Below, one piece after another: positions 6,724 to 41,958 of a stretch of 52,266 nt of DNA (positions are counted from its first letter, which is position 1; each line of letters opens with the position of its first letter). The DNA is from Bacteriovorax sp. GTDB taxonomy: Bacteria; Bdellovibrionota; Bacteriovoracia; Bacteriovoracales; Bacteriovoracaceae. The position numbers were made by a program, and so were the translations under genes. The stretch is from NCBI GenBank assembly GCA_028710485.1, contig JAQTTZ010000017.1, positions 1 to 52,266 of the forward strand, in the 5' to 3' direction. The notes beneath the pieces were generated by a model. That model searched no databases and had not been told where the DNA came from. It saw only the letters and a program-made list of their open reading frames with translations.

Positions 6724-6776
6724 TCGCCTGCTTCGGCTCCTGCCTCCGCAGACATACAATCCATCCTGGATTTATA
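6724..6776 (+). repeat. Dispersed double-hairpin element, copy 1
   Basis: First stem GCCTGC (6726-6731) with GCAGAC (6748-6753), one mismatch, around a 16-base loop containing CTCCTGCCTCC. Then the linker ATACAA and a small stem TCCA-TCC-TGGA (6760-6770), extendable by one A-T pair. The same layout recurs at 13493-13547 (reverse) and 41904-41958 with changed stems and conserved loops. It lies just downstream of rodA, in the same orientation as that gene. Confidence 0.85.
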
Positions 6777-6865
6777 GTCCTACTATCATACTTGACTTGC
6801 AGAATCTCTTCATGGGACACTAATTTGGTCTCATTTAAGGACTATGAAGGTCCGGGAGTTGTTTC

Positions 6866-7327
6866 ATGAAGAAAGTTTCAAGCATTGGCAGTCTAGTAAA
6901 AAAAATTTACCGAACTTATTCAGGCGAACTTTTGACCCTTTTACAAGTAAGGGGCTTCACTGATTTACGCCCGTCATTTCTAGAAGTTCTTTTGTTTATT
7001 TGTGAACATCAGGGGCCGACTATTAAAGAAATCGGTTACGGTTGCGGTCTTAAAAAACAAACGATGACATCCCATTTAAATGAACTGGAAAAGCGCGGCT
7101 ATATTGAGCGCAAAGTGAATATTCAAGACAAACGTGAACAAAATATTTTCCTTACTGAATTTGGCCTGAAGTTTAAACTCAATCTCTTTGAGTGCATCAA
7201 CGAAATTGAAAAAAAATATACCGATTTAGTAGGGGATTTGGAACTCAATAGAGTTGAGTTAATTCTTAAGAATTTTCACTCAAAATTGCTGATTCAGCCC
7301 GGTCTTTTTGAGCATCTTTCCGAATAA
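6866..7327 (+). CDS. MarR-family transcriptional regulator
   Basis: A 153-residue winged-helix DNA-binding protein, probably a dimer. The recognition region shows TIKEIGYGCGLKKQTMTSHL followed by LEKRGYIERK and the wing DKREQNIFLTEFG, the standard MarR arrangement at about residues 50-105. N- and C-terminal helices would form the dimer interface. No obvious target gene is divergent from it; the upstream neighbour is rodA and the downstream neighbour is convergent. The effector and regulon are unknown. I see no clear palindromic operator in front of it. Confidence 0.88.
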   Translation: MKKVSSIGSLVKKIYRTYSGELLTLLQVRGFTDLRPSFLEVLLFICEHQGPTIKEIGYGCGLKKQTMTSHLNELEKRGYIERKVNIQDKREQNIFLTEFGLKFKLNLFECINEIEKKYTDLVGDLELNRVELILKNFHSKLLIQPGLFEHLSE

Positions 7328-7342
7328 AGTAAAAAAAATTGC

Positions 7343-7864
7343 TTAGACGTCAATGTTTGGAGCATCTTCTTTTTTGGCTTCAACTTTTTCATTTCCAGGC
7401 CAAAATTCATAGCCACCTGAAATATTATTGATATTAAAGAAGCCTTTTTTTACTAACATTTCACAGGCCTGAATTGAGCGAAGTCCATTTTCTGAAATGA
7501 TCATTACGGGAACAGTTTTGCTTGGGATTTCCACGAAGCGAATATGAAGTTCTTCTAATGGAATTTGAATAGCTTCTTTTAAGCGAGGGCTTTGAAAAGT
7601 TTTTTGAGATACATCTAAAACAAAGAAATCAATATTGGGATTATTGTAAATTTCCCAGGCTTTTTGTGGGCTGATATCGTTATACGGTCTCCCCATCAAA
7701 ATCATATTATCGTCGATTTCTTCGCCGTTTTTTACTCGAACCAAATGGTTTCTTTGAAGAGTAATAGAGAAGTCTAGTTTTTCATCCATGCGAGTAATAT
7801 TTTTCTCGATATTATTAAGACGAGAATTGATGAACTCTAACATTTGAAAAATTTTAAGATCCAT
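7343..7864 (-). CDS. Rhodanese-like domain protein lacking the catalytic cysteine
   Basis: A 173-residue soluble protein. Residues 1-35 look like a short amphipathic coiled coil (INSRLNNIEKNITRMDEKLD), and about 60-158 form a rhodanese fold with FVLDVSQ and the active loop SENGLRS. In active rhodaneses this loop begins with Cys; here it is Ser124, so sulfur transfer is unlikely and a binding or structural role is more plausible. The ATG at 7864 was chosen because AGGAG lies eight bases upstream; an in-frame TTG 24 bases further out lacks one. It is convergent with the MarR gene. Confidence 0.82.
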   Translation of the reverse strand: MDLKIFQMLEFINSRLNNIEKNITRMDEKLDFSITLQRNHLVRVKNGEEIDDNMILMGRPYNDISPQKAWEIYNNPNIDFFVLDVSQKTFQSPRLKEAIQIPLEELHIRFVEIPSKTVPVMIISENGLRSIQACEMLVKKGFFNINNISGGYEFWPGNEKVEAKKEDAPNIDV

Positions 7865-7945
7865 TGCTGTCACTCCTAAATGGGCCAATCGCTACCATTT
7901 CAATTGTAGCGAAGAGCACGAATCTTTTGGAGTGAGGCAAAAGCT

Positions 7946-7969
7946 GCTAGGTCCTTATAAGAACCTAGC
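7946..7969 (-). terminator. Probable terminator of the HD phosphohydrolase gene
   Basis: Seven-base inverted repeat GCTAGGT (7946-7952) and ACCTAGC (7963-7969) with a self-complementary CTTATAAG loop. On the minus strand it overlaps the gene's stop codon and is followed by AGCTTTTG. The short T-run makes this a weak to moderate call. Confidence 0.4.
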
Positions 7970-9278
7970 CTCTGTAGGAATGAATAAGAGCTAAAAGATT
8001 TTTGTGTTGAATAGCGCTCATGCTGCCTACATCGCAGTGTAATCTGTTAACTGCATGGGCCTTGGCAAATTTAGTGAAGAGATCAGTAGCTTCATCAATA
8101 TTAAAAGTGATTTTCTCATCACTTCCATAAAGTTTCCTAACTACTTTCATCGGGTATTTGCTGATGCTTTCTTCATCCACATAATATTTTGAAAGTCTGC
8201 CACTTGAGCCGGAACGAATATATTCAATATTTTCTTTTTCAAGAAAAGCCTGAACAGTTTGCAGGTGAGTTTCTTGGCTTTCATTGAAAGATTCAAAAAT
8301 CTTTTGAGGAACTTGATTTTTTATAATGGCATCGGCGTATTTATTTTTACTCTTCTTTAAGACTTTCATTAAATAGTGATCGTCGTGTTCAATATATTCT
8401 TCAATTGAAGCAGGGATAGTGTATTCAAGCGGTGAAGTTTTAAAGTATTTATAAAGCAATTGCTCCAAGCATACAGCTCGGTAATGAAAATAAACCATAA
8501 TGAACATATGGTAGCGAGACAAAAGAAAATCATCAAAAGTCACAACCGCACGTTCATTGATTCCCAGATAAGCAGTATTATTTTCAATAGAAATTTCTAG
8601 ATTATCCAACAACCAATCGAGATCGTATGAGCCGTAACTGACTCCACAGAAATAACTGTCTCTTAGCAGATAATCCATTCGATCACAGTCGAGTTCACTT
8701 GAAACCAGCTGGTGAAGAATTGGAAAATAATTAATTCCTTTCACGGTGAAGTAACTTGCATCACTCGTGTGTCCAGTGATCAGGTCGGCAATATATTTTC
8801 TTCCCACGCCAAACTTTTTTTCGACCAATGAAAATGAACCGGCAAAAGAACTGTCGACGATGGATTTGATTGTATAATCTTCGTGAGTCGCTTGGCGGTC
8901 AGTTTTCTGATCTTTCTTAGAAAGAAAATCAGTTGGAATATTGAGCTCTGAAAGTTTTGGCATAACCGTTTCAGTTGAATGCGAAAGAGGGGCGTGTCCC
9001 ACATCATGAAGCAAGCAGGCTAGCTTAAAAGTTTCTTTTAATCGTTGAATATCTTTTTCAAAAAGAGTTTCTTTAAAGAGTCGATCAAAAGCTTTTTCCG
9101 CAATATGCATGACACCTATTGAATGAATAAATCGGTTATGAGTCGCTCCTGGAAAAACATATTCTGAAAAACCAAGCTGCTTGATATTTCTTAAACGTTG
9201 AAAAAAATCATCGCGAATAATAGGAATTTCTTCATCTAAAATATGAATAGAACCGTGGACGGGATCGCGAATTTCCAT
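7965..9278 (-). CDS. HD-superfamily phosphohydrolase, SAMHD1/dGTPase-like
   Basis: A 437-residue metal-dependent phosphohydrolase. The N-terminus has the family signature DPVHGSIH, followed by ATHNRFIHSIG (His52), LLHDVGHAPLSHSTE (His91, Asp92) and LDCDRMDYLLRDS for the distal Asp. This arrangement is that of the SAMHD1/YwfO branch of dNTP triphosphohydrolases; the exact substrate is not provable from sequence. The glutaredoxin gene ends 12 bases upstream, so the two are likely cotranscribed. The link between a deoxynucleotide hydrolase and a glutaredoxin, a possible ribonucleotide reductase electron donor, is suggestive only. Confidence 0.88.
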   Translation of the reverse strand: MEIRDPVHGSIHILDEEIPIIRDDFFQRLRNIKQLGFSEYVFPGATHNRFIHSIGVMHIAEKAFDRLFKETLFEKDIQRLKETFKLACLLHDVGHAPLSHSTETVMPKLSELNIPTDFLSKKDQKTDRQATHEDYTIKSIVDSSFAGSFSLVEKKFGVGRKYIADLITGHTSDASYFTVKGINYFPILHQLVSSELDCDRMDYLLRDSYFCGVSYGSYDLDWLLDNLEISIENNTAYLGINERAVVTFDDFLLSRYHMFIMVYFHYRAVCLEQLLYKYFKTSPLEYTIPASIEEYIEHDDHYLMKVLKKSKNKYADAIIKNQVPQKIFESFNESQETHLQTVQAFLEKENIEYIRSGSSGRLSKYYVDEESISKYPMKVVRKLYGSDEKITFNIDEATDLFTKFAKAHAVNRLHCDVGSMSAIQHKNLLALIHSYRG

Positions 9279-9290
9279 TGGGAGATTTCC

Positions 9291-9551
9291 TTATTCAGTT
9301 TTATCTAACGTTTCTTGATTGGCCTTTAACCAATTAATAATATCCAAAGACTCATGCATCGGATCGCCATTGATAAATAGGCACGGCACCGTTTTTCTGC
9401 CAGTAATATAGATAAGCTTTTGCATCTCATTTATGTCGTCATAAATATTTTTGTAAGCAACTTTGATTTTAAGTTCATTAATAATATTCAATACTCTTTG
9501 GCAATAAGGGCACGAATCAAAATAATACAATTCTAATAATGGAGCTTTCAT
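9291..9551 (-). CDS. Glutaredoxin
   Basis: An 86-residue thioredoxin-fold protein with the dithiol active site CPYC (Cys14, Cys17), the cis-proline motif TVP and GDPMHESLDIINWL, which resembles the glutathione-binding end of glutaredoxins. It is a thiol-disulfide reductase acting in the cytoplasm. AAGG precedes the ATG. It is probably the first gene of a two-gene unit with the HD phosphohydrolase. A terminator separates it from the histone-like gene upstream. Confidence 0.88.
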   Translation of the reverse strand: MKAPLLELYYFDSCPYCQRVLNIINELKIKVAYKNIYDDINEMQKLIYITGRKTVPCLFINGDPMHESLDIINWLKANQETLDKTE

Positions 9552-9571
9552 CTTTAGCCTTATTCTAGATT

Positions 9572-9605
9572 AAAAAAAAGGCTTCTTTTCAGAAGCCTTT
9601 TTTTT
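9572..9605 (-). terminator. Rho-independent terminator (bidirectional shape)
   Basis: Nine-base stem AAGGCTTCT / AGAAGCCTT with a four-base loop, flanked by eight A and eight T. It lies just after the stop of the histone-H1-like gene on the minus strand. Confidence 0.9.
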
Positions 9606-9613
9606 ATAAATGT

Positions 9614-10402
9614 TTAGAAATCGTCATCATCATCATCAATCATTTCTTCACTACTGCTACTTCCAGGCCCTGATTTTTTTCCAAGAGCGTACTCTTCGTC
9701 TTCATCAAGAATATTGCTTAGATCAACATCTTCCGGTTTATCGAAAGCGTCGTTGTAGCCCCAACCGTAAGAGTAAGCACCTTCGGTTTTAACTTCCTCG
9801 TCTTCATCTGGATCAAATGAGCCACCTGAAAAACGTGGATCGCCTTCTGCTTCATCATCCTCATTAGCAAAGTCTTCATCGGCCATTGCTTCATCGACAG
9901 TTTCAGCATCCTCATCTTCAAGAAGATCAACTTCTAAATCAAAATCCTCGTCGTCTTCATCTTTGATTACGACAGGTTTAGCTTTTGATTTAGCCTTAAT
10001 TGGAGCCGCTGAATTTTTATATTTCTGAATGGCCTCTTCTTTAGAAAGAACCTTCGACTTTTTGTCCACTTTTTTTGCAGGAACGCTAACTGCTTTCGCC
10101 TTTTTAGCTGCAACTGCAACAGGAGCTGTTTTTTTGGCAGGAGCTTTTTTAGCGACTGGCTTTTTAACTGAAGCCGCTTTTTTGGCAGGAACTTTTTTAG
10201 CCACTGGCTTTTTAGCTGGAGCCGTTTTTTTGGCAGGAGCCTTTTTAGCGACTGGCTTTTTAATTGGAGCCGTTTTTTTAGCAGGAGCTTTTTTAGCCAC
10301 TGGCTTTTTAGCTGGAGCCGCTTTCTTTGCAGGTGCTTTTTTTGCAGGTGCTTTTTTTGCAGGTGCTTTTTTTGCTGATTTTAAAGCTTTCGATTTTGCC
10401 AT
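9614..10402 (-). CDS. Histone-H1-like basic protein with acidic C-terminal tail
   Basis: A 262-residue protein of two opposite halves. Residues 1 to about 115 are almost only Ala, Lys and Pro, including about four copies of a 16-residue unit ([16 protein letters not shown]), like eukaryotic H1 tails and bacterial AlgP/HctB-type proteins. Residues about 150-262 are rich in Asp/Glu, ending [11 protein letters not shown]. The basic half should bind DNA non-specifically; the acidic half could shield it or bind other basic proteins. GAGGG stands seven bases before the ATG. The DNA repeats make copy number prone to slippage. Long open frames on the opposite strand here are an artefact of the repeats. 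Its role in nucleoid compaction is inference. Confidence 0.8.
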
Positions 10403-10493
10403 TATCTTACCCTCTTTTCTCTATAGATGACTGCTAATGATCTAGTATCAACTGGGAGCTAGTATATATGTACTATTTGAATTTTTTCAAGGA

Positions 10494-13211
10494 TTAAAAA
10501 TCGAGAAAGTAACTATTGTTGCCGACTTCACTATATTTAAGCGGATTTCGAAGCTGAATTTTTCCTACGAGATCATCGGGGAATGCTTTGTCTGATTCTC
10601 TTAGCGCAGGTTGCTCTTGGTAGACCGCAATGCCCGTGCCAGCGCCACCACCAGGAGCAGTATCCAGGACTTTTGCCATTTGAAAAAACTTTGTCGAATA
10701 AAAATTGCGTCTTGTTGAATAACTGTCGCTGCCCGGGCTAGTTAATTTTAAAGGATGTTCAGCAATGCCTTTTTCCCCACTGGTTCCCTGACGAGCGCCG
10801 GGGAAATAGGCGGTCATGAGTGTTTCTGGCTTAAGATTGAGATCTGAGCCCGGCTCATTAAAGTAATAACCAATATAAAACATACTTTTATCTAAGCCTC
10901 CTTCGTTAGAAGATGCTCTGTTGAGGAATTCAATCATCATTTTTTTAAGTGGAACAATGTCGCAGCCAGTATATTCAGCTGTGAAGAAATGATTAAACTT
11001 TGAAGCCAGGTCAGATTTACACCCAGGGTCACTGGCCGGAGCTGCTGGGAGAGGGTCAGGGGTGCTAGTATTACTTCCAGCGTTGGCATGAATAGAACGA
11101 GCAGCCTCTTTATTATCACCTTGAGTGGCCAGATTAAAAATACTATTGGCCACGACCAAAAGAGATTTTAAATAAGTGTCCACGGCAGGACCGTTGGTAT
11201 CAATATATGTATTAATAACTGATTTAACCGCGTCTGGAGTTGTATACAAAAGGTTTGGACCGATGAGAGGGGCAAAAAGTTTGTAGGTAAAGCCGACTCC
11301 TGAAATAGCATTTAATCTTTGAACAATTGGAGCGGCATTATTTTGATCACTTACTTCCCTAAAATCTGGAACTAAATAATTAATGGCGTCGTATCTCGTA
11401 GGTCGCCTAGCGCGAATGATTGATTTTAAAACGTCATCCCCAGACATTGATGTTCCAGGATTAAGCATACCGATACTGGCCCTAAGAGCTTTTAGTTGAG
11501 GAGCATGATAAAGGCCTAGCGTTTCCTTGGGAGGGACTATTGCATTTGTAAAAACTCCTGCAATTAATGTAGGGACATTATTTTTTGAAGCAAATGCCGA
11601 ATCAATAACCTGAACTTTTCCTGAACCTGCTTTCTGTGTAACCAGATCACTTTCATCTGCAAAGTCGTAAATCATATTGGGAATGCCAAAAAATACCGGC
11701 TTGCCTGTTCCAGGGACGCCACCGATAACTGGATTGGAGTCGTTTACCCAAAAACTTGAACTGGAAGGTATTGGCATGCCAGGTTTAAATTTAAATCCTC
11801 CAGCCGCAATGACTTCTATTTTTAATCCATTTATGTATGACCTAGATCGACGGTTGGCATCTTCTCTGGCCTCAACTGTTGCTTGATCTCCACCGGTGTA
11901 GGCAAATAATTTGGGACCAATTCTTCCCCCGAATGGTTTAGCTGCAGCATAGGCAGTCAGCTTAATTCCTGAACTCGTGCCAATGGGAAAAAATAATCCA
12001 ATAAATTTACTCTCGGCCTTTACCGCGTAGTAAGTAAGAACCTCGGGATTTTTATTAAAGCCCATAATATAGCCAGGAACAGGTAGGGCCGATTTTGAAA
12101 TACCGCAAGTTGCTTCCATTGCCACCCCGCCCATCGCGGCTGACCCAGCATTCGCAGTATCTACAAAAGTAGAAAACATTGTGGCGAGATTAACTGGCAT
12201 CAACTGCAAATCTAAATAACGTTTCTCAAGAGCACTTGTCCCATTGGAATAATGAAAATCTGGAGGAATAAGAAATCTCGACAGAGGATATCCATCAGCA
12301 TGAAAAGACTGGGGAGCAAGCTCCGTCAGTGATAAATTATATGACAATTCATCAATCGCTCCGCTACCAACATTATTGTTTTTATAAGCTCCTCCACCTA
12401 AATTCCGATAGGCAGACCAGAAAGCTTTTATGGGACGTTCATTGAGTCCAATTTCCACGGCCTGTCCCTGGAACTGCCCAATATTTTTTAATGAGATATC
12501 AGCGACGGGAGGACGGTTCACGATCATTTCTAAATTTCTTATTCTAAAAGATAACTCTAAAGCCTCAGGCCATGCTCCTGGGCGATTGGTTGCAACCAGT
12601 GGAGCATCCGGCATACTTATTCCGCCGCCAGCACCGTAGGCCCAAGTCAGCGCTGTTAAAAAATTAGCTTTGCTTCTTCTACTGCAGTCTTTTCCTTTTT
12701 CTTCAACCAGTTTGTTTACGAAGGCTTCGTGAATTTCAGAAATACCAGCAACACCAATGGCCGGAAAGCGCGGAATCCCAGGGAGAGCATAGATTGGACA
12801 AATATTGGTTTTTGAATTGTTGTGAATGCAGATTGAGGGAATATTGTATTTATCAAAATCGGTAACACCACTTATATCCGGAGTGGGAAGAAGAAAATTT
12901 ACTGTTTGTTTGCCGGCAATATTATTGTCTTTTAAATTATAGGGAACAAGGCCCAATTGCCCTAAAACATAATACTTAAACATCCATTCTTTGTAGGTGT
13001 TTCGAAGCTCCCAATTAGCATAGGCAATATTTGTCAGCTGGCGGGCCTGAGTGGCGGCTCCCGAAAAGGCAGCGGCATCCGTAGCGTTCTGTAAGTTAAT
13101 TTTAGCTTTTACGAACAAACCGACATTAATAATAAATGCCAGCATACTCATGACGATGATGAGCGTGATGCCCATAAAGATACTTAATTGGCCACGGTTA
13201 CTTTTAATCAC
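10494..13211 (-). CDS. TadG-like large exported/membrane-anchored protein
   Basis: A 905-residue protein with an N-terminal segment typical of Tad/Flp pilus-associated pseudopilins: NRGQLSIFMGITLIIVMSML, one hydrophobic helix, then KINLQNATDAAAFSGAATQARQ. That signature matches the TadE/TadG-like N-terminal domain. The remaining 850 residues are a large extracytoplasmic part rich in Gly, Pro, Ala and Asn, which I do not recognise. The start is GTG with only a weak upstream GGGA. No other tad or pilus gene is nearby, so it looks like an orphan or part of a scattered system. It could be a surface or envelope protein. Confidence 0.6.
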   Translation of the reverse strand: MIKSNRGQLSIFMGITLIIVMSMLAFIINVGLFVKAKINLQNATDAAAFSGAATQARQLTNIAYANWELRNTYKEWMFKYYVLGQLGLVPYNLKDNNIAGKQTVNFLLPTPDISGVTDFDKYNIPSICIHNNSKTNICPIYALPGIPRFPAIGVAGISEIHEAFVNKLVEEKGKDCSRRSKANFLTALTWAYGAGGGISMPDAPLVATNRPGAWPEALELSFRIRNLEMIVNRPPVADISLKNIGQFQGQAVEIGLNERPIKAFWSAYRNLGGGAYKNNNVGSGAIDELSYNLSLTELAPQSFHADGYPLSRFLIPPDFHYSNGTSALEKRYLDLQLMPVNLATMFSTFVDTANAGSAAMGGVAMEATCGISKSALPVPGYIMGFNKNPEVLTYYAVKAESKFIGLFFPIGTSSGIKLTAYAAAKPFGGRIGPKLFAYTGGDQATVEAREDANRRSRSYINGLKIEVIAAGGFKFKPGMPIPSSSSFWVNDSNPVIGGVPGTGKPVFFGIPNMIYDFADESDLVTQKAGSGKVQVIDSAFASKNNVPTLIAGVFTNAIVPPKETLGLYHAPQLKALRASIGMLNPGTSMSGDDVLKSIIRARRPTRYDAINYLVPDFREVSDQNNAAPIVQRLNAISGVGFTYKLFAPLIGPNLLYTTPDAVKSVINTYIDTNGPAVDTYLKSLLVVANSIFNLATQGDNKEAARSIHANAGSNTSTPDPLPAAPASDPGCKSDLASKFNHFFTAEYTGCDIVPLKKMMIEFLNRASSNEGGLDKSMFYIGYYFNEPGSDLNLKPETLMTAYFPGARQGTSGEKGIAEHPLKLTSPGSDSYSTRRNFYSTKFFQMAKVLDTAPGGGAGTGIAVYQEQPALRESDKAFPDDLVGKIQLRNPLKYSEVGNNSYFLDF

Positions 13212-13465
13212 TAGGTAAAATTTCCCATAAATTAGAAATCAGGTGTCTCAATGCTACCGAAGGGAAATTCGGTGGTCAAACAATACATTGAAAAGTGGTC
13301 GGGAGTGGTCCGATAAATGGTTCTACAGTTTGGTACGTTATTTGAAATAGTAAGCTTAGTTCTAGAGTGTCGAGTCTAGATAAGTGGAACGTTTGTTGTA
13401 TTTCGGCAATCCCATCACTACCACCCTCAAAGTGCATACGCACACCAGACTGAACAATCTAATCA

Positions 13466-13487
13466 CCAGGACTCGCGGGGGTCCTGG
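13466..13487. repeat. GC-rich perfect hairpin beside repeat copy 2
   Basis: CCAGGAC (13466-13472) pairs with GTCCTGG (13481-13487) around the loop TCGCGGGG. It has no T-run on either side. It lies five bases from copy 2 of the dispersed element and is not present next to copies 1 or 3. Confidence 0.6.
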
Positions 13488-13492
13488 CTCGC

Positions 13493-13547
13493 CTTTATTC
13501 ACAGGATGTGATGTATTTCCGCGGGAGGCAGGAGTCGAAGCGGAAAG
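13493..13547 (-). repeat. Dispersed double-hairpin element, copy 2 (reverse orientation)
   Basis: Read on the minus strand: stem TTTCCGC / GCGGAAA (seven pairs, 13540-13546 with 13516-13522), a 17-base loop containing CTCCTGCCTCCC, linker ATACAT, and small stem CACA-TCC-TGTG (extendable to TCACA/TGTGA, 13499-13511). Both stems differ from copies 1 and 3 by paired changes, while loop and linker are kept. Confidence 0.85.
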
Positions 13548-13629
13548 CTCTGCACAGGGAAAATTTTCCTTCTAATTATCCCCTTGTAGATGAAGTACAA
13601 TAAACCGTGTTAGTTGTGGAGAAAAATAC

Positions 13630-14636: not shown

Positions 14637-14696
14637 CCTGGCCATCTTCTAATCTGTAAAATATTAGAGGAATTAATTTATTTAAACTATTGAAAG

Positions 14697-28727: not shown

Positions 28728-31700
28728 ATGAAAAATTTCTCAACATTACTTTTAGTTCTAGCACTGGCTTCTTCATGTGCTCCAAAAAATGCAGGAGATA
28801 AAAATAGCGGATTCAATAATCCTCTTAATAAAATAACTACCATTCTTGGTGAGATGTTCAGCAATCGCCAGCAGTCATCTACAATGTATGTAGGTTTGGT
28901 TCAATTGCAATTGCCGGCCCTTTTAGCTCAGGCCCAAATGGTAGACGGAAAAGCAGTAATAGATGATGCAGCAAAAGCCGCATTATTGGCAGAACAAGAA
29001 GCAGTTATTCAATCCCTGAAAGATCTTTCACCAGAAATTAAAATTATTTCAACTTATAAATTAGTCTTGAACGCAATTGCCTTTGTTGCTCCAAGTAACC
29101 TGGCAGCTGAAATTGCTAAAATCGAAGGTGTTAATAAAGTTATCGAGAATACCAATTTTGACCGTCCAAAAATTTCTTCAACAGAACAAAAATTATCTGA
29201 ACTCTCTACAAGTCTCTCAACTCAAGGTTTAAACGATCACAATACTGTTACTTTTATCGGAGCAGATATTCTTCATAAAGCAGGTATCACAGGGCTTGGT
29301 ATGCGAGTTGGGATTATCGATACAGGTATCGACTACACTCACGCTATGCTTGGTGGTTCTGGTAAAAAAGAAACCTACGATTCAATTGATCCGTCAAAAG
29401 CATCAGAGTTTTTTCCAAACCAAAAAGTTGTTGGTGGAGCTGACTTCGTCGGTACTGAGTACTCTTCAGGAGATCCTGATGTAGAAAAAAATATTCCTAA
29501 ACGCGATGTGAACCCTATTGATGAAGCTGGACACGGAAGTCACGTAAGTGGAACTGTGGCAGGTCTTGGAGATGGAGTAAAAACTTATTCAGGAGTAGCA
29601 CCAGAAGCAAAGCTTTATGCTCTTAAAGTATTTGGTAAAGAGGGAAGTACTTCTGATATCGCAGTTATCGCAGCTCTTGAGTACGCAGCTGATCCAAGTG
29701 AAAAAGCTGATCCAGCAGATCACCTTGATGTCGTTAACCTCTCTTTAGGTGGTGGTTTCGGAAAACCTAAAATTCTTTATACTGAAGCAATTAAAAATTT
29801 AACTAAAGGTGGTACAGTTGTTGTCGCTTCTGCGGGGAACTCTGGAGACAATCCATATATCGTTGGTGCTCCATCAACAGCTGACGAAGCTATTTCCGTT
29901 GCAGCCACTATCGATGATATGCCACAAAATATTTCAATCCCTGCTGTGGGATTAAAAATTGGAGACTCTGAACAACTTCTTGAAGCAACCGAAGGAACAA
30001 TTAGCGTTCCTGCTTCTGAAAGTCATATCTCAGGATCATTCGTTTACATCGGTAACGGTGCTGATCCAATTGCTGAAGATGTTCAAGCGATGGTTAAAGG
30101 TAAAATCGCTCTTATTGATCGTGGAGGAATGTCTTTCGTAGACAAGCTTGCTGTGGCAGTTAAGCTTGGAGCAATTGGTGCTGTTGTTGCTAACAATCAA
30201 GATGGAAATCCTATTCAAATGGGCGGAGAGGGGAAATTTGAAATTCCAGCTATCATGATCACAAAAGCAGTTGGTGTTCAAATTAAAGAGGCACTAAAAA
30301 ATAATTTAGCAGTTGTTTTTAATTTTTCTCCAGGAAAAGTTATTACTCGCGATGATTTAATCGATACGATTACAGACTTCTCTTCTCGTGGTCCTCGTTC
30401 AATCGATTCATTGATTAAACCTGAAATCGCTGGCCCTGGCGCGAATGTTATTTCTGCTAAAATGGGGTCAGGATCTGAAGGTGTTCAGTTTAGCGGAACA
30501 TCAATGTCTGGTCCGCATATCGCAGGAGTTATGACTCTTTTAAAACAAGCTTTTCCAAAATTAACGGTTGCTCAATTAAAAGCAAAAGTTTTAAACAACT
30601 CAAAAATTATGATGAAAGGCCCGGTTCATGTTCCAGTTTCTCTTCAGGGAGCGGGACGCGTTCAAGTGGCCCAAGCATTCAAGTCGCAGGTCATTGCAAT
30701 GCCGGCAACTTTATCTCTTGGTGAAGTTTCTCTTTCTTCGAATAAAACTGTTTCAAAAGTAGTAACTCTTACTAACTTCTCTGATAAAGATATCGTTTTT
30801 AGTTCGAAAGCATTAAACAACAAAAATATTAAAGTTTCATTGCCAGGTTCATTTAAAATAAAGGCCAACAGCTCTCTTAAATTGAATATCAGTTTTAATC
30901 TTCAAAGAGCTAATGCTGACCAAAACAATATTGAAGCTGACGGGTTCGTGGTTCTTCAGTCAGGAGATGGGGCAGAGAAAATCAATCTTCCATTCCTAGC
31001 TGTTCTTAATAAAGTGACCAATATTATTGGTTCTGATTTTTTAACTCTTACTAATTCACAAGATGATAAAGTTGGAGCTGAAGTTCGTTTGGCCTTAACC
31101 AACAAAGGTCAAAACGATGGAGACGCTCTGGTCTTCAACCTTCTTGGAACTGACGATAGAAAAAAAGTACTTCCACCTTTAAACCTTTCTAAGAGCACAG
31201 GTTGTGATCTTGAAGCAGCAGGTATTCGTATCGTTGATAAAGTGGTAGATGGTGCAGATAAAAAAGTATTACAAGTAGGAGTGAAGTTATACGACGCTCT
31301 AACTTTTTGGCAGCCATGTGATATCTCCCTTCAGATTGACTCTGATGGTGATGGTATTGCAGATCTTGAATTAGTGGGGACGAAGGCCAATTATTTGGCA
31401 GGTGTAACTTCTGATACTATAGCTTCACTTTTATTAGATGCAAAAGCTGTTCGCGAACTTCGTAGCACTTATGAAGCTTCTCCGAAAACTGTTAAAGAAA
31501 ATTATATCTCAGCTATTCTCGATGCTGGAGAAATGAAATTCTATGATCATTCAGACGTTGCTGTGATTGAAGCGGATGTCACAAAAATAGCGACTTCAAA
31601 AAATGGGAATATCGGTATTAAATTAGCGGTATCAAACCTTGAATCTGATGAAAATTCAGATGACTTCCTTGCTGATCATGAAACGAAATGGCAAAAAATC

Positions 31701-31901
31701 AATATTAGTGAGAATGCTTTTGCATTCTACAATATGCCTGAAGCTGTTACAGTGAAAGCTAATGATCTTGAAGTGCTTTCTATGAAGCGCGGAGCGGGAA
31801 GTGCAAGGTTACTTGTTCTTTATCCAAATAATGCTCCAGCGTTTAACGAAGTTTTAAAGGATCATCAGTCTCAAATCCTGATCGAAAAGTTTCAAAAATA
31901 G
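28728..31901 (+). CDS. Large S8 (subtilisin/Vpr-like) serine protease lipoprotein
   Basis: A 1057-residue exported protease. The N-terminus has a lipobox (LALASSC, lipidated Cys17). Residues about 55-145 resemble an I9-type inhibitory propeptide. The S8 domain has all three catalytic residues: Asp198 in IIDTGIDYTH, His269 in GHGSHVSGTVAG and Ser592 in GTSMSGPHIAG. A protease-associated (PA) domain lies between His and Ser at about 395-530 (GKIALIDRGGMSF), as in Vpr/C5a-peptidase-type enzymes. The remaining 400 residues look like beta-rich repeat domains. A good promoter and a strong terminator make it a single-gene transcript. In a predator it could attack prey or matrix proteins, but that is inference. 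Confidence 0.93.
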   Translation: MKNFSTLLLVLALASSCAPKNAGDKNSGFNNPLNKITTILGEMFSNRQQSSTMYVGLVQLQLPALLAQAQMVDGKAVIDDAAKAALLAEQEAVIQSLKDLSPEIKIISTYKLVLNAIAFVAPSNLAAEIAKIEGVNKVIENTNFDRPKISSTEQKLSELSTSLSTQGLNDHNTVTFIGADILHKAGITGLGMRVGIIDTGIDYTHAMLGGSGKKETYDSIDPSKASEFFPNQKVVGGADFVGTEYSSGDPDVEKNIPKRDVNPIDEAGHGSHVSGTVAGLGDGVKTYSGVAPEAKLYALKVFGKEGSTSDIAVIAALEYAADPSEKADPADHLDVVNLSLGGGFGKPKILYTEAIKNLTKGGTVVVASAGNSGDNPYIVGAPSTADEAISVAATIDDMPQNISIPAVGLKIGDSEQLLEATEGTISVPASESHISGSFVYIGNGADPIAEDVQAMVKGKIALIDRGGMSFVDKLAVAVKLGAIGAVVANNQDGNPIQMGGEGKFEIPAIMITKAVGVQIKEALKNNLAVVFNFSPGKVITRDDLIDTITDFSSRGPRSIDSLIKPEIAGPGANVISAKMGSGSEGVQFSGTSMSGPHIAGVMTLLKQAFPKLTVAQLKAKVLNNSKIMMKGPVHVPVSLQGAGRVQVAQAFKSQVIAMPATLSLGEVSLSSNKTVSKVVTLTNFSDKDIVFSSKALNNKNIKVSLPGSFKIKANSSLKLNISFNLQRANADQNNIEADGFVVLQSGDGAEKINLPFLAVLNKVTNIIGSDFLTLTNSQDDKVGAEVRLALTNKGQNDGDALVFNLLGTDDRKKVLPPLNLSKSTGCDLEAAGIRIVDKVVDGADKKVLQVGVKLYDALTFWQPCDISLQIDSDGDGIADLELVGTKANYLAGVTSDTIASLLLDAKAVRELRSTYEASPKTVKENYISAILDAGEMKFYDHSDVAVIEADVTKIATSKNGNIGIKLAVSNLESDENSDDFLADHETKWQKINISENAFAFYNMPEAVTVKANDLEVLSMKRGAGSARLLVLYPNNAPAFNEVLKDHQSQILIEKFQK

Positions 31902-34741: not shown

Positions 34742-34787
34742 AGGCGTATTTTACTCCTGTCTTACTTTGTATGGAGAGGGTTAGCTC

Positions 34788-35924: not shown

Positions 35925-35939
35925 ATTTTCTAACTCCAT

Positions 35940-36521: not shown

Positions 36522-36530
36522 AAAATATTC

Positions 36531-37574
36531 TTAGATGTTTTTTATACTTTGTCTTGAAAATTCCAAAACGTCTTGGAATATTTTAGGAGCAGGAACTTCA
36601 AAACGCAATCTTTGGCCGGTAATCGGATGAATAAGTCCTAAAACTTTTGCATGAAGAAATGGGTAATTATAATCACCGATTATTTCTTTATAAGAAGCGC
36701 CAAGTTTCATCATGTGTTCATTTTTTGAGCTGTACATTGAATCGCACAGAATAGGCATTTTTAAAATATCTGCAGTGTGAACTCGAATTTGGTGAGTACG
36801 ACCTGTTTCTAGTTTAAATTCCATATGAAGGTGACGGTCATAAATTTCTAGAACTTTATAATTAGTGATTGCCGTTTTTCCGCGAGTTCCACTATTTTTC
36901 ATTTTTAAACGATTGTGTGGGTCGCGACCGATTAAACTTTCAATGGTTCCATAAGATTGACAACGATTTTTTATAACAAGGGCTTCATACACACGCTCAA
37001 TATCGTGAGTTGAAAAAAGTAAAACTAAACCCTCATGACAAGCCTGGGTTTTTGCAACGACCATTACTCCACTTGTTCCCTTGTCTAAACGGTGAACAAT
37101 TCCCGGGCGCCTTTGGTCTCCAATACCAGTGAGGTCTTTGCAATGCCATAAAATAGCATTCACTAAAGTTCCAGTATAATTTCCGGGTGCCGGATGGGTA
37201 ACCATACCAGCTGGTTTGTATACGAAAAGCAAATGCTCATCTTCGTAAAGAATTTCAAGAGGAATATCTTCTGCCTCTGCTACGCAAGCGATAGCTGGCG
37301 GAACCAATATTTCAATGATCGTTCCAACAGGAGGCATTTTTTTTAATTCGATTTTAGGAATAGGTAGGGGAGACTCATCGCCAACGACGATTTGTTCTTT
37401 TAGAAAAAGATTTTTCAAGAATGTACGAGAATGACCTGATGATTTTTCTGCCAAGAATTGATCGAGGCGCTTATATTTCTCACGGTCTTCTGCCGTAATT
37501 GTATAAGTTATAAATTCATCTTCTGTCGTTTGAGTTTCGACTAGGCTTTCGACTGTATCAACTGGAGTGTTCAC
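36531..37574 (-). CDS. rluD: RluD-family 23S rRNA pseudouridine synthase
   Basis: A 347-residue enzyme that converts uridines in 23S rRNA helix 69 (RluD) or related sites. The N-terminal S4 RNA-binding domain (about 35-95) begins RLDQFLAEKS. The catalytic domain has ILYEDEHLLFVYKPAGM, then GIVHRLDKGTSGVMVVAKT with catalytic Asp164, and ETGRTHQIRVH. The start is GTG with a weak upstream GAG. It is followed ten bases later by pgeF. RluC or RluA specificity cannot be excluded from sequence alone. Confidence 0.92.
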   Translation of the reverse strand: MNTPVDTVESLVETQTTEDEFITYTITAEDREKYKRLDQFLAEKSSGHSRTFLKNLFLKEQIVVGDESPLPIPKIELKKMPPVGTIIEILVPPAIACVAEAEDIPLEILYEDEHLLFVYKPAGMVTHPAPGNYTGTLVNAILWHCKDLTGIGDQRRPGIVHRLDKGTSGVMVVAKTQACHEGLVLLFSTHDIERVYEALVIKNRCQSYGTIESLIGRDPHNRLKMKNSGTRGKTAITNYKVLEIYDRHLHMEFKLETGRTHQIRVHTADILKMPILCDSMYSSKNEHMMKLGASYKEIIGDYNYPFLHAKVLGLIHPITGQRLRFEVPAPKIFQDVLEFSRQSIKNI

Positions 37575-37602
37575 GCGGTGCTCGTTTAAGTTAACGGTTA
37601 AG

Positions 37603-38406
37603 TTAAGGTTTTAACTTCTTCATTCGAGCGACGTAAGAGTTAGCTACAACTTCCGGCTTAAGTTTTAAACATTTCGCGTATTGAAAAACAAAACCGCGAA
37701 CATAAACAGGAGCTGGTAGTTTATCGTAGTCTTCACTCTCGATTCCCTGAAGATAAAGTCTTGAGACTTTAGTCATATCACTTAAGCGTTCAAGGTCAAC
37801 ACTTTTGTATTCGCGAATCTTGCGAAGGAGCTCGCCTGTAAATTCAGTAGCATCTTCGATTTCTCTCTCAAAAGTTGCGTTTACTACATAATCGAGAGCA
37901 AAACGTTTTTGAGTGACAAGTTTAGTGACGTTCGTCGTGTTTGAAAGGGTTTGCGCTGCTCTTGGTGACATTTCACCTATAGAAATAGGAGCTGATGATT
38001 GCGAGTTCAAGGTAAATTCTTCGCGGAGCATGGAACTCACTGAAGCATTGCTTGATTTATTGCTGCTATAAACAGATTCCCCTCTTTGTGGGGCCACGCG
38101 ATCCGACAGAGTATTATAGTTTAGAGCATTGTATTCGCGATTGATTCCGCGAGCTTCATCGTAGCGTTTTCTCTTCATCGGGTCAGAAAGAATGGAATAA
38201 GCCTCTTCAACTAATTCCAATACATTTCTGCATTCTTCCGGGCTCATTAAAGAATAAAGTGCCAGCGAATCAGATGAGTATGCAGATTTCGCTCTTTGGT
38301 AGCTATGGTAAACTTCTTCTGACCTTGCAGTTGAAGGAATTTCTAATACTTCATAATAGTTTTTTAAATCACTGCTCATTCTTGCTGTCTCAGGTGTCTG
38401 TCTCAT
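37603..38406 (-). CDS. J-domain-like plus RodZ-type helix-turn-helix protein
   Basis: A 267-residue protein. Residues about 16-85 resemble a DnaJ J-domain (NYYEVLEIPSTARSEEVYHS, VEEAYSILSDPMKRKRYDEA), but the HPD tripeptide that stimulates DnaK ATPase is absent. A low-complexity Ser/Asn-rich linker follows. Residues about 188-255 form a RodZ/HTH_25-type helix-turn-helix (LLRKIREYKSVDLERLSDMT, APVYVRGFVFQYAKCL). Unlike RodZ it has no membrane helix. Its ATG overlaps the stop of the MinD-like gene (TAATG), implying coupled synthesis. A spatial or DNA-linked role with the ATPase is plausible inference. Confidence 0.82.
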   Translation of the reverse strand: MRQTPETARMSSDLKNYYEVLEIPSTARSEEVYHSYQRAKSAYSSDSLALYSLMSPEECRNVLELVEEAYSILSDPMKRKRYDEARGINREYNALNYNTLSDRVAPQRGESVYSSNKSSNASVSSMLREEFTLNSQSSAPISIGEMSPRAAQTLSNTTNVTKLVTQKRFALDYVVNATFEREIEDATEFTGELLRKIREYKSVDLERLSDMTKVSRLYLQGIESEDYDKLPAPVYVRGFVFQYAKCLKLKPEVVANSYVARMKKLKP

Positions 38407-39362
38407 TAATTAATATTTAGTAGTCGGTGGATAATGCGATCAAAATTATTTACTAGAGTAGAGTTCGGAAACTCCATCAAAAGAGGTTTTCTCTTCTTTA
38501 CACTCTGCCAAACAGTTGCATCGTAATCCAGGTAACCGACATAATCGAGATTGATCCCAAAATACTTTTTACTAATTAGCTTCATAGAGAAACCAATATC
38601 AATATCGGCTTGGGTTCGAACTTGATTAATAATTAATCTTGGATTCAGTTTATTAATTTCTGATCGAAGTTTTTGTCCAATAATTGGATTGATTTCAATC
38701 ACTCGATTAATGAGGTCAGCGGGAGTTGAGTTTTGTGAAATTTTGGCATTCATCGCCTGGTCAATTAATGGACCAATCTCTAAAAGCTCTTCGGCCATTT
38801 TTAATTTTCTATGATAAACGGCCTTGATAAATCTGTATGAGTTCTCAATTGATGTCGGTTCAGGAAGAGTCGTAATAATTCCCTGATCAGCCGAGATAAA
38901 AAAGTCGATAGTATTAAAAGTTGTTCCAGCACCTAGATCTAGTAAAACGTAATCAACTGGAAGTTCACTAAGCTGATTTAAAAGTTTTGCTTTTTGCATT
39001 TGCTTTAAATTGGCAATCCCTAAATCATCTTGAGCACCGCTGATAATATATAAATTATTGATGGCAGTCGGAGTGAGAAGTTCGTTTAGACTCCGGACTT
39101 TTTTGGAAAGATAATCTGAAAGAGTTTTTTCAGGAATTGGCACACCCAAGCATGTATGCAGGTTGGCCCCCCCGAGATCGAGGTCAATGGCGGCGACTTT
39201 GTGGCCCATTAAAGCTAAACAAATGGCAAGGTTAGCTGTTACGAGACTTTTTCCAACGCCTCCTTTTCCACCACCAATGGCCCATACCTTTTGTTGGCCT
39301 TGAGTTCCCAAATGCGTTTGAAATTGATTATTTAGGCCTGATTGATCATTTAATATAGACAC
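38406..39362 (-). CDS. MinD/FlhG-family P-loop ATPase
   Basis: A 318-residue ParA/MinD superfamily ATPase. The deviant Walker A motif KGGVGKS lies at residues 33-39, followed by AAIDLDLGGANLHTCLG (switch I/Walker A') and DYVLLDLGAGTTFNT (Walker B). Such proteins place flagella (FlhG), divisomes or other polar machines. The GTG at 39362 was chosen because AGAGGA lies nine bases upstream and it begins just before the conserved region; the frame extends 59 codons further without similarity. First gene of the six-gene minus-strand block. Confidence 0.88.
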   Translation of the reverse strand: MSILNDQSGLNNQFQTHLGTQGQQKVWAIGGGKGGVGKSLVTANLAICLALMGHKVAAIDLDLGGANLHTCLGVPIPEKTLSDYLSKKVRSLNELLTPTAINNLYIISGAQDDLGIANLKQMQKAKLLNQLSELPVDYVLLDLGAGTTFNTIDFFISADQGIITTLPEPTSIENSYRFIKAVYHRKLKMAEELLEIGPLIDQAMNAKISQNSTPADLINRVIEINPIIGQKLRSEINKLNPRLIINQVRTQADIDIGFSMKLISKKYFGINLDYVGYLDYDATVWQSVKKRKPLLMEFPNSTLVNNFDRIIHRLLNIN

Positions 39363-39607
39363 AAGATTCCATCCTCTTCTAATAGCCTTAATCCACAATC
39401 TTAGCAGATGTTTCATTTTATTATAGGAAGAAAAACACAAAATGTAAGGAAAAAATAGCAAAGTAGTTGTAACCAGGAAACTTGTAAATAATGCAGAGAG
39501 ATTTACAGTAATGCAGGTTCTATGTAAGCTATTTAACATATTAAGGTACTTGAATTTGAATAAATGACCATCTCACTTGGTTTATTTTACTGCTAAGGAG
39601 CCTCTTA

Positions 39608-40273
39608 ATGGGACAAGCCCTACAATCGCTAGTCAGAATTTCTTCGCCACTAAGGTTGAGATCAGACCTACACATCGCTCGTAAACTTTGGCATATGGCC
39701 ACTGGTCTAATTGGTCTTACGGTTTATTACAAGTCAGGACTTTCAACTGATATGATGGCCACTGCTCTTTTGCTGTTTTCTGCGTTTTCTTTCTTGGTAG
39801 AGTTTCTACGTCTGCGCAATGAAAAATTGAACCAACTCCTCATGATTGTTATGAAACCTATAATGAGAGAGTCGGAGAAAAATTCTGTAAGTGGAATGCC
39901 ATTTTATGCTTTAGGTGTTTCTCTTTCGCTTTTCTTTTTTCCTGAGACAATCGCAGTTTTATCAATTCTCTTTTTAATTTTCGCTGATCCTATCGCTTCT
40001 TTTTGCGGGATTCTTTACGGTCGCGACAAAATTTTTCCAAACAAATCTTTGCAAGGAACGATTGCCGCTTTTTCAGTTTGTTATATCGTTACTTTGATTT
40101 ACGGATTAATTCACACTAACCCTAGTATGAATCTTTTAGTTTTCTCAATTGTGGCGGGTGTCATTGGAGCGGTTTCAGAACTTTGCTCTCAATTTGTTGA
40201 TGACAATCTTTGCATCCCCGTTATCTCAGGGCTTGGACTTTTCTTACTTAACTTCTTAATTACCGTATTCTAA
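39608..40273 (+). CDS. SEC59/dolichol-kinase-like CTP-dependent lipid kinase
   Basis: A 221-residue polytopic membrane protein with about six helices. Family motifs are HIARKLWHMATGLI, ADPIASFCGILYGRDKIF, NKSLQGTIAAF and FVDDNLCIPVISG. These match the dolichol kinase/phytol kinase/CdsA-like family, which uses CTP to phosphorylate polyprenols, phytol or diacylglycerol. The true substrate in this organism is unknown. AAGGAG lies eight bases before the ATG. It diverges from the MinD-like gene and is convergent with the LonN gene. Confidence 0.8.
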   Translation: MGQALQSLVRISSPLRLRSDLHIARKLWHMATGLIGLTVYYKSGLSTDMMATALLLFSAFSFLVEFLRLRNEKLNQLLMIVMKPIMRESEKNSVSGMPFYALGVSLSLFFFPETIAVLSILFLIFADPIASFCGILYGRDKIFPNKSLQGTIAAFSVCYIVTLIYGLIHTNPSMNLLVFSIVAGVIGAVSELCSQFVDDNLCIPVISGLGLFLLNFLITVF

Positions 40274-40281
40274 TTCGTTAT

Positions 40282-40935
40282 TTAACTCGCATTTCTATAA
40301 TGATCTGTTTCGAGGCGTTCAAAACTTTTGATCGCCTCGCACATTTCAACGTCTTCATTTTCTGGACTTTCTCCAACTAGTAAAGCATTCATCATTCGCA
40401 CGCGATCGAGCAGAGATGTGCTCTCTAAAAAAATTTGCTTGAGCTCAATATCCTTAATGAGAAACATGCATAGATTGTTGATTAACTTTGCTGGTGAGCT
40501 CATGTCCTTCATAAAACGCTCACGTTCACGAGTCGAGTTCACATGTCGGTGAAGCCAACTTTCAAGAACCAGATGCAATCTCTCAATAGGAGAGTCGGTG
40601 AGTGTTTGTGTTTTTTCGTCCAGATCATAATAGTCGTCGGTGTGATAAAGAGGATAGGGATCGTCTTTGTCCATATCTAATAATTTAATTCGCACCAGTC
40701 CCTGAATCACTACGCTTAAACTACTATCGGTATTGTGATCAATCAGAATAATCTTACCAAGAGTACCCACCCCTCTTGATCTGGTATGTGGATGAAAAAG
40801 AGCGATATCAGTGCTGTTTTGGTAACTAGTAAGAAGCATTTGTTTGGAAATATTATCGTTCACTGTTAAGGGAATAACGGTTTGAGGATAGAAGATATTA
40901 TTAAAAAGATAGAGAGTCGGAACTGGCTTTTTCAT
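40282..40935 (-). CDS. Stand-alone Lon N-terminal (LonN/PUA-like) domain protein
   Basis: A 217-residue protein similar to the substrate-binding N-domain of Lon protease, without the AAA+ or protease parts. Signatures are LYLFNNIFYPQTVIPLTVND, GVGTLGKIILID and SVVIQGLVRIKLL, followed by helices. Such short proteins are common and poorly characterised. They may bind unfolded or regulatory substrates. The acidic C-terminal tail is unusual only in composition. It lies between two convergent/divergent neighbours with no operon partner. Confidence 0.85.
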   Translation of the reverse strand: MKKPVPTLYLFNNIFYPQTVIPLTVNDNISKQMLLTSYQNSTDIALFHPHTRSRGVGTLGKIILIDHNTDSSLSVVIQGLVRIKLLDMDKDDPYPLYHTDDYYDLDEKTQTLTDSPIERLHLVLESWLHRHVNSTRERERFMKDMSSPAKLINNLCMFLIKDIELKQIFLESTSLLDRVRMMNALLVGESPENEDVEMCEAIKSFERLETDHYRNAS

Positions 40936-41039
40936 AGAGATATTTTAAATGAGGATGCTCAAAAAAGCAGAATTCAGCCTATTGGCTTGAATTCTCGACT
41001 TGAGATTGAGATAATAATGCCAACTATTCGAGGATATCT

Positions 41040-41903
41040 GTGATTAAAGAATTAAAGCCTACAATCGTTCGCAAAATTTGGGGCGGAAATAAATTAGAAA
41101 TAATGAAAGACTTGCCAACTGCATTCAACGGAATTGTTGAGCCTGTTGGTGAAACATTAGAAATTTTTGAAAAGCATTTACCATATCTCGCAAAATTTAT
41201 AGACACTAGTGATGAGCTTTCCATCCAAGTTCACCCAGGAGACGAATACGCTCGTATTCATGAAAACTCCTCAGGGAAAACGGAGTGCTGGATTATTTTA
41301 GAGGCCCATCTTAATGCAGGAATTTATCTGGGATTAAAATCTCATGTCACTAAAGATGTTCTAAAAAACGCTCTTAAAGAAAAAAAAGCAATTAATGAAC
41401 TTCTCAATTTTTATCCTGCGAAAGCGGGAGATTTCTTTTTTGTGCCGTCCGGTAGCATTCACGCTATAGGAAAAGATATTACGCTCGCTGAAGTTCAACA
41501 AAATTCTGGTATCACGTACCGAGTTTGGGATTGGGATCGTCTGGACGATCAGGGAGTCAGCCGCGAATTGCATGTCGATAAAAGTCTCGATGTCATTAAC
41601 TTCGATCCAATTTTTAATACACCTGAATTTTTTAAAATGAGACATGAGCTTTTTTTGACGAATGGATTAAATGAAATTTGCAGTCATCCGGACTTTCATT
41701 TATTTCTTTTGAATTTAAAAAAGGGTGAAGAGTATCTAACAAAATTATCATCCTTAGCTCGTCCTTGTTCTATCCTGAATTTAGAGGGGAAGATCAAAAT
41801 TAATCAAATAATCGTTGCATCTTTTTGCGCCGTCACCATTGAAAAAGAATCAGAATTATCTATTACAGCTCTCGAAAACGGATCGCTTTTACTTATCTTT
41901 TAA
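41040..41903 (+). CDS. manA: Mannose-6-phosphate isomerase, class I
   Basis: A 287-residue zinc-dependent cupin enzyme interconverting fructose 6-phosphate and mannose 6-phosphate. Visible are IVRKIWGGNKL, LSIQVHPGDEYA (zinc His), KTECWIIL, DFFFVPSGSIHAIGKDITLAEVQQNSGITYRVWDW with zinc ligands and substrate residues; only parts of this stretch are quoted here as landmarks: PSGSIHAIG and ITYRVWDW. It is of the shorter Bacillus type. The start is GTG with GAGG seven bases upstream. Copy 3 of the dispersed element begins almost directly after its stop codon. Confidence 0.93.
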   Translation: MIKELKPTIVRKIWGGNKLEIMKDLPTAFNGIVEPVGETLEIFEKHLPYLAKFIDTSDELSIQVHPGDEYARIHENSSGKTECWIILEAHLNAGIYLGLKSHVTKDVLKNALKEKKAINELLNFYPAKAGDFFFVPSGSIHAIGKDITLAEVQQNSGITYRVWDWDRLDDQGVSRELHVDKSLDVINFDPIFNTPEFFKMRHELFLTNGLNEICSHPDFHLFLLNLKKGEEYLTKLSSLARPCSILNLEGKIKINQIIVASFCAVTIEKESELSITALENGSLLLIF

Positions 41904-41958
41904 TTCGCCTGCTTCGGATCCTGCCTCTCGCAGGCATACATCCCATCCTGGGAATAAA
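41904..41958 (+). repeat. Dispersed double-hairpin element, copy 3
   Basis: Stem GCCTGC (41907-41912) with GCAGGC (41930-41935) around a 17-base loop containing ATCCTGCCTCTC, linker ATACAT, small stem CCCA-TCC-TGGG (41942-41952). It lies immediately after the manA stop, in manA orientation, like copy 1 after rodA. Confidence 0.88.

Follow-up and report, generated by a model that had tools for sequence, protein, structure and literature searches.

Three copies of a double hairpin in the window

The window discussed here is the whole stretch of 52,266 nucleotides from Bacteriovorax sp., which is contig 35 of a 234-contig draft genome (G000; 4.3 Mb, listed as 99.93% complete and 8% contaminated). 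It carries three copies of an element of about 50 bp that can fold into two hairpins in succession. The positions, strands and common layout reported for these copies by the first-pass annotation were all recovered: the pattern TTCGRNTCCTGCCTC-N(0-3)-GC has three matches in the window and none in 100 shuffles, and each copy is matched by a covariance model as well. The element is interpreted below as a non-autonomous mobile repeat of the class Bacteriovoracia that works like a repetitive extragenic palindromic sequence (REP), has terminators as its targets and multiplies in genome-specific bursts; the probability of this reading is put at about two in three. The copies and the genes around them are as follows.

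5606-6712, plus strand: rodA (TIGR02210), which precedes copy 1 and ends 13 nt before its stem 1
6726-6772, plus strand: copy 1, behind rodA
6866-7327, plus strand: MarR-like regulator gene, which follows copy 1
10494-13211, minus strand: open reading frame (ORF) matched by Pfam Tad; as the element reads, it lies downstream of copy 2
13499-13546, minus strand: copy 2
41040-41903, plus strand: manA-like gene (TIGR00218, below cut-off), which precedes copy 3 and ends 3 nt before its stem 1
41907-41955, plus strand: copy 3, behind the manA-like gene
41956-41997, minus strand: terminator-like hairpin with an A-tract at 41956-41962 (the minus-strand T-tract), between copy 3 and an opposing ORF at 42033-42374

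Copies 1 and 3 thus begin shortly after stop codons, as had been noted before. In copy 1, stem 1 (6726-6731/6748-6753) encloses a loop at 6732-6747 and is joined by a linker (6754-6758) to stem 2 (6759-6763/6767-6771), which closes on a TCC triloop (6764-6766). Copy 2, read on the minus strand, consists of stem 1 (TTTCCGC 13546-13540, GCGGAAA 13522-13516) with its loop at 13539-13523, the linker TACA (13515-13512), and stem 2 (TCACA/TGTGA, 13511-13507/13503-13499) around the TCC triloop at 13506-13504. In copy 3 the corresponding parts are stem 1 at 41907-41912/41930-41935, the loop at 41913-41929, the linker at 41936-41940, stem 2 at 41941-41945/41949-41953 and the triloop at 41946-41948, followed by a terminal AT (41954-41955). 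The stems had been described as paired in every copy. This is true of stem 1 in copies 2 and 3, where pairing is perfect, but not of copy 1, in whose stem 1 (GCCTGC/GCAGAC) the second pair is a C·A mismatch (C6727·A6752). An additional inner stem within the first loop, GGC-TCCT-GCC, is possible in at least 25 of 112 copies, a count made with a crude regular expression that stops at the first match.

The earlier statement that no named family of this shape was known agrees with the Rfam search, in which no match in the window reached its gathering score. At five copy-bearing loci there were five Rfam matches at E ≤ 1, none at its gathering score; three weak ones (27-28 bits, against gathering scores of 50-55) overlap the end of the element and the terminator, and we take them for chance.

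Copies across Bacteriovoracia and changes in the stems

A covariance-model search of the genome and its relatives, which had been proposed as a check, yielded many further copies, covariation and a mostly intergenic placement. The designation "three-copy element" had to be given up: the genome contains 11 exact copies of the core (and none of a reversed control pattern), and the covariance model built from these 11 copies finds 28 places at E ≤ 1, 26 of them below 1e-4, with L038 and L039 (E 0.26 and 0.32) excluded from the counts. At E ≤ 0.1 the same model has matches in 18 of 57 genomes, G000 among them, where the weak matches outside the class (G042, G049 and G054, E 0.02-0.08) were treated as chance. 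Of 129 genomes of Bacteriovoracia, 45 have copies by a broader covariance model at E ≤ 0.001, with 1 to 26 in each; they represent 19 of 48 genera. Within the genus (G000-G013) there is a match in 8 of 14 genomes, G012 having a single weak one, and none in the other six. A search of 84,980 named species genomes for the exact pattern gave 12 loci, every one of them in Bacteriovoracia (Bacteriovoracaceae, Halobacteriovoraceae and the like). Viral contigs contained no match to the exact pattern, and the region of copy 1 was unmatched in the phage collection. A divergent form with the loop ATCGCTCCTGCTCA is present in G076 and G077, and head-to-tail tandem arrays of the element occur in several genomes. 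According to a crude ORF caller, 76 of 84 copies lie outside ORFs of 120 aa or more. No description of such a repeat was found in literature searches, which covered open-licence papers only. We regard the element as a real mobile DNA-hairpin family that carries no label in the sources searched; it is of an ordinary kind, and what is unusual is its placement behind terminators and its stems, which change freely and are nearly always paired.

Compensatory changes in the stems, which the first-pass annotation had read from three copies, became clearer with more of them. Among the first 11 copies, which were aligned independently, 7 of 11 pairs change on both sides; the picture is the same in 112 distinct copies, where 10 of 11 pairs do so. 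In this larger set 94.1% of 1214 cells are standard-paired, as against 20-49% when the partners are slid, and both-sided changes are found in 328 cells compared with 104.5 ± 8.8 in shuffles. Variability is among the highest in the outer stem columns (several at 1.3-1.9 bits), and 21 of 108 copies lack pairing at the third pair of stem 1. It had also been claimed that the loops and the linker hardly change. Most of these columns are indeed near-constant, but four of them stand at 1.0-1.4 bits.

Covariation is usually taken as proof of a functional RNA. The mismatches of this element do not have an RNA-like spectrum: G·U accounts for 32 and A·C for 25 of the 1214 cells (binomial p 0.43), and in copies with at most one non-Watson-Crick pair the counts are 7 and 12 of 911 cells. 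Seven tRNA acceptor stems taken as a control gave 6 G·U and 0 A·C of 49, a tiny sample for which the tRNA finder itself favours G·U. Since G·U is no commoner than A·C, the departures from pairing favour a DNA hairpin, or template switching from arm to arm, over RNA pairing on either strand. Together with the empty sites and the genome-specific stems described below, compensatory change here seems to indicate a DNA hairpin and mobility.

Template switching can be taken further, as a source of the covariation that involves mutation and not selection. In quasi-palindromes, one arm would be copied onto the other in a single step, and the loops would be kept by selection or by recent ancestry; PMC8794818 proposes such a process for RNA genes. 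The low and nearly equal numbers of G·U and A·C speak for it, as does the finding that several pairs differ on both sides between copies at one locus. At the flagellin locus of G000, G001, G002 and G013 the terminator looks almost the same throughout, and identity is 75-100% in the unpaired part of the element and 9-64% in the stem pairs (100% and 64% between G001 and G013). Nevertheless, the spread to new sites and the fixed loops are left unexplained by this process, and copies that share a locus may have been inserted independently. This origin of the covariation is fairly unlikely, yet it is compatible with a mobile repeat rather than opposed to it.

Placement beside terminators and empty sites

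Many copies end in ATAAAA, which merges with the A-tract of a terminator-like hairpin. Of 84 copies, 59 have a hairpin of at least -10 kcal/mol stability within about 40 nt on the 3' side and 7 have one on the 5' side (Wilcoxon p 7e-12); some of the 84 are orthologous loci and hence non-independent. In G000 alone, a stable hairpin lies 3' of 18 of 24 copies, copy 3 being one of those with a terminator-like hairpin, and 5' of one of the 24. The 3' neighbour gene is on the opposite strand in 61 of 79 cases (p 1e-6), and for the 5' neighbour there is no bias, with 43 of 80 running in the direction of the element. Viewed from the opposing gene, the usual order is therefore gene, terminator hairpin, T-tract and reversed element. 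Copies recur behind certain genes, identified by Pfam as those for flagellin in G000 and G024, a SWIB-domain protein in G000 and G140 and sigma-70 in G000 and G079 (the sigma-70 gene of G113 was assigned by clustering only), and also behind a family of 241-310 aa of which four members have no Pfam match. The genes with recurrent copies are presumably strongly expressed. The family is a test bed for the question of whether terminators are entry points for single-stranded mobile DNA, and its copies can serve as landmarks in annotating Bacteriovoracia genomes.

The sites of the window copies were compared with those of related genomes. For copy 1, eight relatives were retrieved and four aligned, and the copy is absent from all four congeners at an otherwise matching site. 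The same numbers and the same outcome were obtained for copy 3. For copy 2, 11 genomes were retrieved, and the copy is absent from G002, the single congener included in the alignment. The empty site of copy 3 in G001 and G002 shows the T-run directly followed by the A-run and a similar terminator, and G001, G002 and G005, which lack the copy, have a stretch resembling the terminator-like hairpin with its A-tract. No target-site duplication above about 2 bp was seen at copy 3; A/T runs at the sites mask anything up to about 2 bp. At a further locus in G000 (locus A, G000:C216:10504) the element is absent in 10 of 10 relatives, and by eye the A-tract and the terminator-like hairpin are present in all rows; 15 nt in G002 are perhaps a remnant, and in G001 a stem-loop with a different sequence stands there. 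Of 10 relatives compared at locus B, one (G004) has a copy as well, and G005 and G011 have nothing there. When 24 G000 locus rows were compared with the copy-bearing loci of six congeners, 11 had no match.

The stems also differ in type from genome to genome. With one copy kept per array and three duplicates removed, stem identity is 0.604 within genomes (n 428) and 0.516 between them (n 4622), and none of 500 label permutations gave a value as high. The stem GTCGAC, for instance, is found in 5 of 8 compared copies of G143 (16 in the genome), and at two loci of G084 every copy has it. Empty orthologous sites and genome-specific stem types point to a short mobile repeat, and the earlier suggestion of a REP-like mobile element is supported in that the element is multi-copy, mostly intergenic, sometimes arrayed in tandem, missing from orthologous sites and genome-specific in its stems.

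The other suggestion made at first, a structured 3' untranslated region (UTR) or folded RNA, is weakened. A cis-acting RNA would be, in the plus reading, a 3' UTR or a small RNA ending at a bidirectional terminator behind the element, and its exposed CUCCU and UCC loops would bind a protein or GGA sequences that resemble Shine-Dalgarno sites, in the manner of the cuckoo RNAs of alphaproteobacteria. The strong covariation, the mostly fixed loops, the arrangement of both hairpins and a terminator-like hairpin one after the other in many copies, and the presence of some same-locus copies in several species are consistent with it. However, most copies lie behind the terminator of an opposing gene, whose properly terminated transcript would not contain them, and the upstream genes are co-directional at chance level only. 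The near equality of G·U and A·C, the empty sites of the aligned relatives for copy 1, for copy 3 and for locus A, the six genomes of the genus that have no match and the lack of an Rfam match at gathering score also argue against a cis-acting RNA, which we consider quite improbable.

The search for a mover, shared loci and known repeats

The first-pass annotation had named an IS200- or RAYT-type (REP-associated tyrosine transposase) enzyme as a possible mover, and this part was not supported. In a strict RAYT/REPIN system the copies would owe their movement to a Y1 tyrosine transposase whose gene lies elsewhere in the genome. The hairpin anatomy resembles that of short perfect REPs, and a Y1_Tnp match (E ≤ 0.001) is present in most genomes of the class (86 of 129). 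However, no convincing copy was found at 20 Y1_Tnp loci in 8 genomes, which cover 21 of 22 Y1 matches (in G000, five of six places with Y1 matches, C139 being left out): with filters off and flanks of about 0.4-1.5 kb where the contig allows, there were 12 matches at E ≤ 10, the best of 15 bits and E 0.019 (two loci). Nor is there an association by genome: of the 45 that carry copies 32 have a Y1_Tnp match, and of the 84 that carry none 54 do (Fisher p 0.56). The 13 copy-bearing genomes that lack a Y1_Tnp match at E ≤ 0.001 include G143 (16 copies), G024 (10-11) and G124 (5; given as 100% complete), where it should be noted that several of the 13 are incomplete and that Pfam may miss divergent Y1 proteins. 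The motif at the foot of the hairpin is ATAC, not GTAG. A RAYT or IS200 mover is thus unsupported by the family search and by the flanks of the Y1 genes, and a strict RAYT/REPIN system seems unlikely.

Genes next to the copies were considered as movers too. Clustering of 526 ORFs from 109 stretches (some overlapping) gave families of which the 30 largest were listed and only some annotated; there is no transposase among the annotated members of the recurrent families. Their products include flagellin, sigma-70, a sigma-54 activator, the SWIB-domain protein, an epimerase and response regulators. As far as the annotated families go, a recurrent neighbour gene was rejected as the mover. Eight scanned proteins from recurrent clusters have no Pfam match. 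The family offers a test bed for how small repeats without an adjacent RAYT move.

Besides these three negative results on the Y1 loci, co-occurrence and neighbour genes, a number of observations weigh against mobility at terminators. Mobility has been read from sequence comparison; the larger alignments (A2-A4) were fitted to the structure model; 8 of 84 copies lie inside ORFs of at least 120 aa (crude caller); and copy 1 has no terminator beside it. Eight of the 24 G000 locus rows match a copy-bearing locus of G002 on both flanks (a match between L022 and L068 was judged by coordinates to be a neighbouring site beyond ssb, not the same site), and for the genes of sigma-70, flagellin and the SWIB-domain protein alike, more than one genus has copies behind them. 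Copies at the same loci in several species make a kept function possible. The copy at locus B sits where G001, G002 and G008 show, by eye, a terminator-like hairpin, and it may do a job there. Stem identity is also slightly higher between same-locus copies (0.59, 23 pairs) than between 243 other pairs (0.515; p 0.025).

The last difference was found to be too small for shared loci to be accepted as proof of inheritance, as same-locus stems are barely above different-locus ones; re-insertion at hot spots or rapid rewriting of stems must be common. Some loci do look inherited, namely L021/L058 and L023/L062 (stem identity 0.91 each) and L029/L060 (1.0). The loci filled in several species are best described as a mixture of inheritance with re-insertion or stem rewriting.

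A kept function could be that of a backup terminator or 3'-end insulator, with copies retained to stop read-through or to protect neighbours and spread by ectopic recombination instead of a transposase. The copies behind flagellin, sigma-70 and SWIB-domain genes across genera would fit, as would the copy at locus B, which sits where those three relatives show a terminator-like hairpin. Against this, no stable hairpin lies beside copy 1 (downstream, -7.0 kcal/mol) and none is apparent in its empty relatives, relatives do without a copy at the sites compared, and the consensus has no T-tract behind either hairpin in the plus reading. This explanation appears very unlikely.

In the mobile-repeat reading, a folded single strand of DNA would be recognised through the fixed loops (CTCCTGCC and TCC) and the fixed linker CATAC, and the letters of the stems would matter only through pairing. 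Insertion would occur mostly in one orientation, just 3' of the coding-strand T-tract of intrinsic terminators, would leave no visible target duplication longer than about 2 bp, and would be followed by multiplication in genome-specific bursts, sometimes into head-to-tail arrays. Covariation, copy number, orientation bias, the empty sites, the adjacent terminators and the stem types of single genomes are shown by the data, and recognition as single-stranded DNA, entry at the DNA held open by a terminating polymerase and an enzyme that reads structure are inferred. A more detailed version, in which a structure-reading enzyme other than Y1 copies the folded strand, the copy enters DNA opened at the end of transcription and the stems change by single-step copying from arm to arm, is offered tentatively and is on the unlikely side; in it, the terminators of busy genes would be landing sites, and the element would retain shape and loops while its letters change.

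Several known systems resemble the element in part. Integron attC sites are recognised as folded single strands and have sequence-variable stems, which recalls the element; unlike them, it has no GTTRRRY/RYYYAAC core that could be noticed by eye, and no integrase search was made. Integron-like arrays in G005, with copies spaced about 1.2 kb apart, were dismissed as such, as the copies are parts of a longer dispersed repeat and apparently not attC sites. The cuckoo RNAs of alphaproteobacteria are multi-copy small RNAs with anti-Shine-Dalgarno loops of the CUCCU type, sometimes chained. The element shares the CUCCU-type stem-loops, the copy number and the occasional chains, but it belongs to another bacterial class, is known here from sequence and has the mismatch spectrum given above. 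IS200/IS605 elements have two unlike end hairpins and insert 3' of a short T-rich target without target duplication. A miniature derivative of such an element would fit on both counts, except that no autonomous parent was found and the element is only about 50 bp long. For group IIC introns, the stem-loop target is often a terminator with its T-tract. The reading of a tetranucleotide by IS608 is described in PMC5934647, and the insertion of group IIC introns beside a DNA stem-loop in PMC10190682. Insertion beside a stem-loop is the likeness to the introns, whereas some 50 bp is too short for a ribozyme or an intron-encoded protein, and the element is itself a hairpin.

The closest likeness is to REPs and REPINs. 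These are likewise short, mostly intergenic palindromes in many copies, single or clustered, which are read as folded single strands by features of loops or mismatches (for the element, an inferred property). According to PMC8266576, group 3 REPs are short perfect palindromes with loops of 3-4 nt behind a fixed tetranucleotide, and E. coli K12 has about six hundred REPs; the same source and PMC3116915 describe REPs beside their tnpA-REP gene and mostly preceded by GTAG. The second hairpin, a short perfect palindrome with a loop of this size behind a fixed short motif, is like group 3. In contrast, the element has two unlike hairpins in fixed order with freely varying, compensated stems, its foot is (C)ATAC in the plus reading and GTATG in reverse with no conserved GTAG or GGAG, it is placed directionally behind terminators, no RAYT was found nearby, its presence does not go with that of Y1 genes, and no genome has more than 26 copies. 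It was not filed as a REP because it has neither a tnpA-REP neighbour nor GTAG. Two further identities were set aside: a CsrA site (CAGGATG, reverse strand), as that reading lies behind the terminator, and TIGR arrays (PMC12045711), as the variable parts of the element pair with each other.

Some copies occur in larger arrangements. The dispersed repeat of G005 is about 200 bp long and contains a divergent copy (L067 175-377, 2323-2524 and 7117-7268; L068 2158-2359 and 3330-3551; L075 4840-4948); several of these repeats end near ACTT repeats, and the whole is possibly a composite mobile unit. At L188 2425-3047 (G084:C19), inverted copies flank about 460 bp that hold an internal inverted repeat and may be a decayed insertion sequence splitting an array. 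At L206 1-300 (G083:C475) a terminator and a variant copy are tandemly duplicated with a period of 147 bp. The sequence GGCATCCTGCC, perhaps half an element, is a lone hairpin with the same TCC triloop that lies behind a terminator next to the element in L021 and L173, which belong to two genera.

Two observations concern other features. A 1057-aa ORF at 28728-31901 of the window matches several families of subtilisin-like serine proteases below their cut-offs. On the minus strand of L078 (8313-8505; G000:C166), a sub-threshold match to 6S RNA (41.4 bits, gathering score 46.4, E 2.5e-5) is probably the 6S RNA of this genome.

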